A DNA stretch of 64,000 bases from an archaeon. Its GTDB lineage: Archaea; Thermoproteota; Nitrososphaeria; Nitrososphaerales; Gagatemarchaeaceae. Positions 2,687 through 5,210 of this stretch are shown here, in pieces. Under the pieces are notes generated by a model that was not told where the DNA came from, did not search any database, and saw only the letters and a list, made by a program, of their open reading frames with translations. A program made the translations under genes and the position numbers. The stretch covers positions 310,001-374,000 of the forward strand of contig JAKAUC010000009.1 in assembly GCA_021827865.1 (NCBI GenBank), written 5' to 3'. Every line of letters begins with the position of its first letter. Within the stretch, counting starts at the first letter, position 1.

Positions 2687-2786
2687 GGCCCTACGGGGGG
2701 CCGGGCCGCGCTATTACTCTTGCCTTGGGGGGTCCCCGGGCGCCCCGTGCAACGCATAATTATCGTCAACGGCGAGGCGCCCTCGC

Positions 2787-2893
2787 GGTGGGGTGGCGGA
2801 GCGGTTACGCGTGCGCCTGCAGTGACGGCCGTCAGTGAGCGCATTCACATGGGTCCGAAAGCGGCGGTGCCGCCGTGAGTCCCATCCCCACCT
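2787..2893 (+). tRNA. tRNA-Cys(GCA) with two predicted introns
   Basis: The acceptor stem is a perfect 7 bp: 2787-2793 (GGTGGGG) pairs with 2886-2892 (CCCCACC). The discriminator is T at 2893, and U73 is the classical identity base of tRNA-Cys. The D-arm is 2796-2810. The anticodon stem TGCGC (2812-2816) pairs with GCGCA (2839-2843), and the anticodon GCA is at 2819-2821. A 15-nt insert at 2823-2837, canonical position 37/38, must be removed. The T stem ATGGG (2849-2853) pairs with CCCAT (2881-2885), but 27 nt separate them, so about 20 nt (roughly 2860-2879, near position 59/60) is a second intron that folds as a 5-bp GC hairpin. T-loop position 55 would be C instead of U. CCA is not encoded. 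A TATA-like ATAATTAT at 2756-2763 lies about 25 nt upstream. Confidence 0.88.
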
Positions 2894-3041: not shown

Positions 3042-5210
3042 CTACACGAACAGGGCGAAGAGGACTATGGCGGAGATGAACACTATGGAGATGGTGTTCA
3101 GGACCTTGATCAGCGAGTTGATGGCCGGGCCGGCGGTGTCCTTGAACGGGTCGCCCACCGTGTCCCCCATCACGGCCGCGGCGTGGACCGGGGTCTTCTT
3201 CCCGCCGTAGTTCCCGAGCTCGATGTACTTCTTCGCGTTGTCCCAGGCAGCCCCGCCGTTGGTCATCATGAAGGCCAGGAAGACCCCGGACGCGACGCTG
3301 CCGATGAGGAGGCCGCCGAGGGCCAGCGGGCCGAGGATGAACCCTACCACCAGCGGCGTGGCCACTGCGAGGAGGGCGGGCTTTGCGAGCTCCCTCAGCG
3401 CGGCCGTGGTGCTGATGCCGACGCACCTGGCGTAGTCAGGCTTCGCCGTCCCCTCCATGATCCCGGGTATCTCCTTGAACTGGCGCCTTACCTCGTTCAC
3501 CATCTTGATGGCCGCCCGGCCGACGGCCTGGATCAGGAAGCTCGAGAAGTAGAACGGCAGCAGGGCTCCTATGAAGATGCCTATCACCACCCTCGGGTCG
3601 CTCAGGGCGAAGGTGAGGGTCGCCCCCTGGGCGAGGCCGTACTTCGCGAAGAGGTCGTGCTGCGCGATGAGCGTGTTAGCCTCGTCCTGGAAGGCGAAGA
3701 AGAGGGCCACCGCGGCCAGGGCCGCGGACATCACCGCGAAGGCCTTGGTGGTCGCCTTGGTGGTGTTCCCGACCGCGTCGAGCTCGTCGGTCACCTCCCT
3801 CACCCCCGCCTCCAGCCCCGCCATCTCGACGATGCCGTTGGCGTTGTCGGTGATCGGGCCGAAGGAGTCTATCGACATTATCACGCCGGTGAGCGAGAGC
3901 TCGGCCATGGCCGCCACCGCCGTGCTGTAGACCCCGACGAGTATCCTCGACGACTCGGCCACGGTCGAGGGGGTGGCGTAGTACCCTATGAAATAGGAAA
4001 TGAGTATCGCGAGCACAAGGACCACGGCAGAGGGCGCCGTGCTCTGGAGCCCCGTGGAGAAGCCCGCGAGGAAGTTGGTCGCGGCCCCGGTCTGGCTGGC
4101 CTCGGCCACGAACTTCACCGGCTTGTAGTTGTAGGACGTGAAGTAGTCGGCCACCCTCTCGATGGCCACCACGACGACGATGCCCACTATCGAGCTGGCC
4201 AGCAGGGACCACCCCAGCGAGCTCCCCTTGAAGACGTACTCGCTGGCCACGGCGTCTATGGCCACGGCGATCACGGCGGAGATCAGCAGGGACGTGTTGA
4301 GCGCGCCCATGGGGTTCTTCGAGATGCTCTTCCTGATGTAGAGCCCCCCGAGGATCGACCCGACGATCCCCGAAGCGCCGAGGAGGAGCGGGAAGACGAA
4401 GAGCTGGTCGGCCGTCATGAGCGAAGCGAGGGAGCCGAAGGCCGAGCTCCCAGATGTGATGAGGGCCGCGAGGATGAGGGCCGCGACGGAGATCACGACG
4501 AAGGACTCGTAGATGTCGGCCCCCATGCCGGCGCAGTCACCTACGTTGTCCCCCACGTTGTCAGCGATGACAGCCGGGTTGCGCGGGTCGTCCTCTGGGA
4601 TCCCCGCCTCGGTCTTCCCCACCAGGTCGGCCCCGACGTCGGCCGCCTTCGTGTAGATGCCTCCGGAGACCCTCATGAACATGGCGATCAGAGAAGCGCC
4701 GAACCCGAGCCCGGCCAGGATCGCCGGGGTGGTGACTATGACCCCCTGGAAGACTATGTAGAAGAGCGAGACCCCGAGCAGCCCGAACCCCACCACCGCC
4801 ATCCCCATGACCCCCCCTCCCCTGAAGGCGACGGTCAGCGCGCTCCCCAGCCCCTTCCGTGCGGCCTCGGCGGTCCTGGAGCTGGTGCGGACGGTCATCG
4901 CCATGCCCACGTACCCAGCCAGCGCCGAGAGGAACGCCCCGACCAGGAACCCCGCGGCCGTGGCCCCGTTGGTCTTCAGCGGGATGTCGATGAAGACGAA
5001 GATCAGAACGGCGATGACCGCGGCGATGGGGGTTATCACCCTGTACTCCCTCCTGAGGAACTCGTCGGCCCCCTGCCTCACGGCGGTGGATATCTCGACC
5101 ATCTTGGCGTTCCCCTGGTCCTGCTTCCTGACCGAGTACACCAGGTAGAGGGCGTAGAGGAGCGCGACCCCGGAGCCGCCGACCGCGAGGTAGCCGTAGT
5201 CGAAAGCCAA
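3042..5210 (-). CDS. hppA: Membrane-bound proton-pumping pyrophosphatase
   Basis: A 722-residue integral membrane protein of the usual family length, with about 16 spans. It couples pyrophosphate hydrolysis to ion pumping. The catalytic segment lies at about residues 191-236 with the DNVGDNVGDCAG hallmark. The determinant of potassium dependence, GNTTKATTK at about 481-489, has lysine at 485. In this family that lysine goes with potassium-independent, proton-pumping enzymes. The gene is monocistronic and precedes, with its own short gap, the deoxyhypusine synthase gene on the same strand. Confidence 0.97.
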   Translation of the reverse strand: MAFDYGYLAVGGSGVALLYALYLVYSVRKQDQGNAKMVEISTAVRQGADEFLRREYRVITPIAAVIAVLIFVFIDIPLKTNGATAAGFLVGAFLSALAGYVGMAMTVRTSSRTAEAARKGLGSALTVAFRGGGVMGMAVVGFGLLGVSLFYIVFQGVIVTTPAILAGLGFGASLIAMFMRVSGGIYTKAADVGADLVGKTEAGIPEDDPRNPAVIADNVGDNVGDCAGMGADIYESFVVISVAALILAALITSGSSAFGSLASLMTADQLFVFPLLLGASGIVGSILGGLYIRKSISKNPMGALNTSLLISAVIAVAIDAVASEYVFKGSSLGWSLLASSIVGIVVVVAIERVADYFTSYNYKPVKFVAEASQTGAATNFLAGFSTGLQSTAPSAVVLVLAILISYFIGYYATPSTVAESSRILVGVYSTAVAAMAELSLTGVIMSIDSFGPITDNANGIVEMAGLEAGVREVTDELDAVGNTTKATTKAFAVMSAALAAVALFFAFQDEANTLIAQHDLFAKYGLAQGATLTFALSDPRVVIGIFIGALLPFYFSSFLIQAVGRAAIKMVNEVRRQFKEIPGIMEGTAKPDYARCVGISTTAALRELAKPALLAVATPLVVGFILGPLALGGLLIGSVASGVFLAFMMTNGGAAWDNAKKYIELGNYGGKKTPVHAAAVMGDTVGDPFKDTAGPAINSLIKVLNTISIVFISAIVLFALFV

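Follow-up and report, generated by a model that had tools for sequence, protein, structure and literature searches.

The gene at 2787–2893 of the 64-kb window, the whole stretch of DNA analysed here (G000:C13:310001–374000), raises the question of whether a tRNA-Cys interrupted in both its anticodon loop and its T-loop can be a working gene, and the only one of its kind in the genome. Two spliced introns, at positions 37/38 and 59/60, are the best reading of the sequence, and this reading, joined to the explanation that the locus is a single functional gene, is very probably correct. It is well supported because the splice-site pairing is kept and because the genome encodes the processing machinery genes and a conserved TATA-like box. 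The assembly comprises 1.94 Mb in 20 contigs and is 99.24% complete and 7.47% contaminated.

Gene architecture and empty sites

The features assigned to the locus, in window coordinates, are as follows.

2755–2763, plus strand: element resembling a TATA box, CATAATTAT, with its centre 28 nt before the first tRNA nucleotide; putative in function.
2787–2893, plus strand: tRNA-Cys(GCA) gene with two predicted introns, 107 nt; 79.2 bits with the covariance model, joined exons recognised by ARAGORN.
2787–2822, plus strand: exon 1, assigned by pairing and conservation; acceptor 5' strand (2787–2793), D-arm (2796–2810), anticodon stem 5' strand (2812–2816) and loop positions 32–37, with the anticodon GCA at 2819–2821.
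2823–2837, plus strand: predicted intron 1, 15 nt, at position 37/38; missing from G032 and G033; CTG/CAG and a single mismatch make up its central helix.
2838–2859, plus strand: exon 2; A38, anticodon stem 3' strand (2839–2843), variable region (2844–2848), T-stem 5' strand (2849–2853) and T-loop positions 54–59 (TCCGAA).
2860–2879, plus strand: predicted intron 2, 20 nt, inserted into the T-loop at 59/60; eight of the 21 same-genus genes are without it, and 12 distinct introns maintain the splice-site pairing.
2880–2893, plus strand: exon 3; U60, T-stem 3' strand (2881–2885), acceptor 3' strand (2886–2892) and discriminator U73 (2893).

Once both inserts are removed the stems pair fully, as the original prediction had it, and every pair is Watson-Crick (acceptor 7/7, D-stem 3/3, anticodon stem 5/5, T-stem 5/5). 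The two inserts that it described, 15 nt at 37/38 and about 20 nt near 59/60, are located at 2823–2837 and 2860–2879 and have empty counterparts in relatives, and the Cys identity that it read from the GCA anticodon (2819–2821) and U73 (2893) agrees with the call that ARAGORN makes on the joined exons. Intron 2 contains an internal hairpin, GCGGC/GCCGC, and ends directly before U60. Shifting the 37/38 boundary by one base leaves the product unchanged, and the 59/60 position was set by comparison and by the register of the splice site.

Intronless orthologues with the predicted junctions exist for both sites, and the junctions are thereby supported by comparison. The 37/38 insert (15–17 nt) is present in all 21 same-genus tRNA-Cys genes; G032 and G033, which belong to the same family, lack it and read CTGCAGAGCGC uninterrupted, and the site is also empty in G047, G060 and two named contigs. 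The 59/60 insert (20–33 nt) is present in 13 of the 21 genes, and the other eight contain a plain 7-nt T-loop with the sequence TCCGAAT, TCCGAGT or TTCGAAT (the G018 gene was read by eye). Stem mismatches in relatives had been named beforehand as evidence that would count against the gene; none of the stems examined has decayed, and the T-stem changes on both sides, as ATGGG/CCCAT, AAGGG/CCCTT, GTGGG/CCCAC and GAGGG/CCCTC.

The T-loop intron and position 55 among close relatives

What is new here is this tRNA-Cys locus together with the scattered presence of its T-loop intron among close relatives. The closest contrast is G004, whose RpoB is 97.5% identical over 971 residues and whose tRNA-Cys lacks the T-loop insert. 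An RpoB tree was built for 24 genomes from a 971-residue part of the protein, 18 of them labelled (13 with and 5 without the insert); it omits G018 and G020, which have no RpoB match, and G026, which has a partial one, all three being without the insert. Well supported branches of this tree force at least four changes in insert state, and the insert is no more clustered on it than shuffled labels are (171 of 500 shuffles are as low). RpoB was preferred to the neighbouring hppA gene as the basis of a species tree, since in the hppA tree the clade of the window falls in with other families. The hppA gene itself (membrane pyrophosphatase; 3042–5210, minus strand) adjoins the tRNA-Cys gene. Its copies in G000, G004, G022 and G024 agree at 96% within the clade and at 70–73% with the rest, and they group with other families' copies instead of those of the same genus, a pattern that suggests in-place replacement of the gene in the window's clade.

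The T-loop intron may have been gained once and then lost several times, or gained repeatedly. Independent gain in several genomes, for example by intron transposition, would bear solely on the origin of a spliced intron and would not conflict with the main reading. It fits the scattered presence and the repeated changes on the RpoB tree, the widely different insert sequences, and the separate 59/60 insert in another family (G046). However, the insert position is the same throughout, and several inserts share their first bases (AGCG, or CG and then TGG or CGG), as would suit a single gain with several losses; we regard independent gain as rather unlikely, although it deserves serious consideration. 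Within the genus, genomes of high protein identity either carry or lack this T-loop intron, and the natural series that they form bears on the timing of intron turnover.

The T-loop of the window's tRNA-Cys reads U54-C55-C56, not the usual U54-U55-C56, with position 55 at 2855. C55 is found in 17 of the 21 same-genus tRNA-Cys genes, both with and without the T-loop intron, and U55 in those of G018, G022, G024 and G027, so that C and T alternate at this position between close species. In most relatives C55 pairs with a G of the intron's splice-site helix. A broader proposal would have the tRNA-Cys of this genus combine a fast-turnover T-loop intron with loss of the near-universal U55, the mature tRNA either working without pseudouridine 55 or having C55 edited to U after splicing. 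We consider this very unlikely. For C55 as such, tolerance is the only mechanism put forward, with editing as a remote alternative; to our knowledge no such C-to-U editing site at tRNA position 55 is known in archaea.

The idea that C55 is peculiar to the tRNA-Cys gene was rejected, as 118 of the 151 genomes searched in the order contain a match to a C55 T-arm pattern. In the window's genome, C55 also occurs in tRNA-Thr(GGT), tRNA-Val and a tRNA read as Ser(TGA) that ARAGORN calls Ala (L010, L016, L020). Taken alone, the pattern is weak evidence in GC-rich genomes, because the control comes near to it and because some of the stretches that it retrieves are not tRNAs: 23 same-genus genomes give 68 matches against 44 for the reversed-pattern control (2 against 5 in the window's own genome), and among 20 stretches retrieved ARAGORN called 11 tRNAs (8 Lys, 2 Thr, 1 Stop) and made no call in the other nine, several of these clearly not being tRNAs. 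Beyond the family the control count is mostly 0, and two f10 genomes with zero control matches carry C55 in both tRNA-Lys (L203–L207). Another tRNA of the window's genome (L024, 1501–1615, minus strand) parses with G55, its T-loop reading TGCGAAT. A G13-C55 contact is described in a passage on a bacterial tRNA-Pyl (PMC7609411). With a C55 T-loop in several of its tRNAs, this order is informative on the extent to which the tRNA elbow can depart from its textbook form.

Splice sites, copy number and processing

The 59/60 register was tested by pairing T-loop bases 54–57 with the four bases before the intron's last two in 12 distinct inserts (that of G022 equals that of G024). The resulting central helix contains 43 of 48 pairs, against a mean of 22.4 (sd 3.5) for shuffled inserts, none of 5000 shuffles reaching 43, and the count drops to 34 or 25 when the partner is slid by one base. 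The outer four pairs of the insert hairpin likewise reach 43 of 48 (shuffle mean 21.6; best of 5000, 35). A relaxed bulge-helix-bulge pairing at 59/60 is kept across relatives with its peak at the expected register, and its central helix is complete (4/4) in 7 of the 12 distinct introns of the genus. At 37/38, CTG faces CAG or CGG with one mismatch in 19 of 21 sequences (20 same-genus genomes, with G022 omitted as equal to G024, plus G035), and the helix is complete in G018 and G035; the inner part of the window's intron 1 has 8 nt, which leaves no room for a second helix of normal size. Against a strict site of two 3-nt bulges and a 4-bp helix, both of the window's own introns fit in register and form only 3/4 of the helix, with mismatches at C55-U in intron 2 and C35-U in intron 1, and the two sites are accordingly read as relaxed forms. 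The whole precursor fold is not unusually stable (z −1.66), and its unconstrained minimum is not a cloverleaf.

The central-helix mismatch in the window's T-loop site, with splicing predicted here from sequence, could fit a tRNA in which intron 1 is spliced and the T-loop insert is kept as an enlarged loop, but near relatives have an ordinary 7-nt loop at the same spot, the insert varies between 20 and 33 nt while the splice-site pairing stays, and a retained insert would disturb the textbook contact between D-loop and T-loop, which leaves this outcome highly improbable.

A search of the genome for another tRNA-Cys, the check proposed with the original prediction, returned none by covariance model (150 of 2569 candidates), by exon-1 pattern or among Rfam matches. 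The covariance model was built from 10 mature tRNA-Cys sequences that include the window's joined exons, and the score of 79.2 bits (E 7.4e-16) for the window's gene is therefore not fully independent; the next match in the genome scores 47.4 bits, at a place that ARAGORN calls tRNA-Arg. The search scored 150 first-look candidates per genome, and among these, 21 of the 31 same-genus genomes (own included) contain exactly one match of at least 74.8 bits each. The exon-1 pattern, with up to two mismatches, is matched once in each of the same 21 genomes, the window's among them, and nowhere in the other 10. Those 10 also have no tRNA-Cys match by the covariance model, two of them (G008 and G029) being 90% complete, and draft gaps and missed forms cannot be fully told apart as the source of the absence. 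None of the 41 Rfam tRNA matches of the window's genome has a GCA-anticodon arm.

Decay of the locus into a tRNA-Cys pseudogene with drifted-in hairpins, and with a working copy elsewhere, would be in keeping with its being overlooked by simple finders, with an assembly of 20 contigs and 7.47% contamination, and with a model search that scored only part of the first-look candidates. Nevertheless, no other Cys-grade match is present in a genome that is 99% complete, exons and stems are kept in 21 same-genus genomes with two-sided stem changes, and the upstream box is kept in 17 of 24 genes; a pseudogene is scarcely credible on these grounds. An archaeal TATA box is expected at such an upstream position. 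Among 24 aligned genes, the window's own included, 17 have the sequence CATAATTA 32–34 nt upstream of tRNA-Cys, and neither strand of the window contains it anywhere else.

The genome contains two PF01974 splicing-endonuclease genes. Subunit 1 aligns along its length with 3p1z (E 3.3e-43), which we take to be Aeropyrum EndA, and has His where 3ajv has Ala; the alignment is gap-free, Lys included, over a region that is presumably the crenarchaeal-specific loop. Subunit 2 lacks the catalytic His. The predicted catalytic subunit appears to resemble the crenarchaeal kind with relaxed specificity, and such an enzyme is probably needed here, since both central helices have only 3/4 pairs. Crenarchaeal-type endonuclease loops are linked with relaxed substrate recognition in a passage of one paper (PMC12397907), and alpha2beta2 endonucleases with multi-intron and noncanonical tRNA genes in a section of a review that assigns them also to Thaumarchaeota (PMC4090602). 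One PF01139 gene encodes RtcB. The putative CysRS is the 526-aa open frame with the best match to PF01406 (C13:307103–308014, about 4.8 kb from the tRNA-Cys gene and outside the window). The CysRS catalytic family is also matched by two other open frames, of 416 and 419 aa (L235, G000:C9:67154–68017; L236, G000:C3:40837–41703).

In the proposed pathway, the locus would supply its host, a Nitrososphaerales archaeon, with tRNA-Cys as the only functional gene for it, and the upstream TATA-like promoter would give rise to one precursor transcript. Comparative evidence suggests that each insert, together with neighbouring exon bases, would fold into a bulge-helix-bulge-like site; a CAG close to the end of intron 1 would be the partner of loop bases 32–34, and four bases close to the end of intron 2 the partner of loop bases 54–57. 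The two-subunit endonuclease, whose genes are present along with that of RtcB, would then cut both sites and RtcB would join the exons, and the 72-nt tRNA-Cys produced would be charged by CysRS.

Detection, distribution and known systems

The expectation that standard tRNA finders could miss the gene holds for two simple searches, ARAGORN and the Rfam tRNA model. Neither ARAGORN nor Rfam at gathering score finds a tRNA in the window. An Rfam cmscan at the locus gives five matches, all far under their gathering scores, and a whole-genome Rfam tRNA search with E up to 1 gives 41 matches that do not include the locus. ARAGORN calls tRNA-Cys(gca) when both inserts are removed, recognises neither the intact gene nor the gene stripped of its 37/38 insert alone, and misreads the anticodon as Ser, with introns allowed, in a version with only the 37/38 insert. 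The authors of tRNAscan-SE 2.0 describe, in a passage on its design, archaeal models for multiple noncanonical introns (PMC8450103), so that this program may well detect the gene. The Gagatemarchaeaceae genome paper used tRNAscan-SE in archaeal mode, and its main text contains no word starting with "intron" (PMC10640624). An essential gene, one per genome here, is thus invisible to simple tRNA searches, and genomes of the group can appear to be without tRNA-Cys as a result.

The same covariance model was applied to 131 genomes of the order with stricter filters, under which weak matches may be lost, and 114 of them have a match at E 1e-8 or better. Outside the genus, 56 stretches were parsed: 51 longer ones of at least 64 bits, one weaker stretch truncated at the end of a contig, and four short ones. 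This set does not extend to three long matches (G078, G085 and G091, about 50.6 bits) or to a second G091 copy of 69.5 bits. Among the parsed stretches outside the genus, a 59/60 insert occurs only in G046, of family f11. The tRNA-Cys of G046 (L302) has a 20-nt 59/60 intron with an internal hairpin, CATGC/GCATG, and is without the 37/38 intron; that of G034 (L059, 1478–1576) has a 13-nt D-arm insert and a 37/38 intron. A D-loop intron alone is present in tRNA-Cys of eight family f14 genomes, and a variable-loop intron accompanies the 37/38 intron in G044, G058, G068, G076, G083, G089 and G100 of family f9. Judged by these predicted introns, tRNA-Cys often hosts introns in this order, and a tRNA-Cys with two of them is for that reason nothing singular. 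Genomes of family f13 (L298–L300, L303, L304, L306–L309, L314–L316) contain two kinds of GCA-anticodon tRNA, some in multiple copies per assembly. A tRNA-Gly(GCC)-like gene at a contig end (L095, 205–302) has an apparent intron at 53/54 in the T-arm.

The suggestion that such genes are unusual outside Thermoproteales was overstated, as noncanonical introns and multi-intron tRNAs are documented in Thaumarchaeota, in Caldiarchaeum and in the tRNA-Cys of this order. The tRNAscan-SE 2.0 paper counts, in one passage, 107 noncanonical introns in Thaumarchaeota genomes (PMC8450103), and T-arm introns and multi-intron tRNAs are described in part of the Caldiarchaeum report (PMC3293823). In the passages searched, which include those on Thaumarchaeota and Caldiarchaeum and stand outside the intron tables of surveys, this tRNA-Cys 59/60 intron is not mentioned.

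Several known systems can be set beside this locus. The tRNA-Cys genes of other Nitrososphaerales families are also interrupted, some twice (f9 and G034; the D-loop alone in f14), but with the extra intron elsewhere, except in G046 among the parsed stretches. The noncanonical introns of Thaumarchaeota and Caldiarchaeum share a broad lineage with the window's host. According to a passage of a review (PMC4090602), RT-PCR has confirmed an algal tRNA-Cys(GCA) with three introns and a T-arm intron; unlike the present gene, it belongs to a eukaryotic nucleus and its T-arm intron is only 3 nt long, and the two are presumed to be unrelated in origin. The multi-intron tRNAs of Thermoproteales, such as Pyrobaculum, likewise combine canonical and noncanonical introns in one tRNA, with bulge-helix-bulge sites and an alpha2beta2 endonuclease, and the same section of that review places 59/60 among the noncanonical intron positions of some archaeal genomes (PMC4090602). 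They differ in lineage, the host here being a member of the Nitrososphaerales and the twice-interrupted tRNA a tRNA-Cys.
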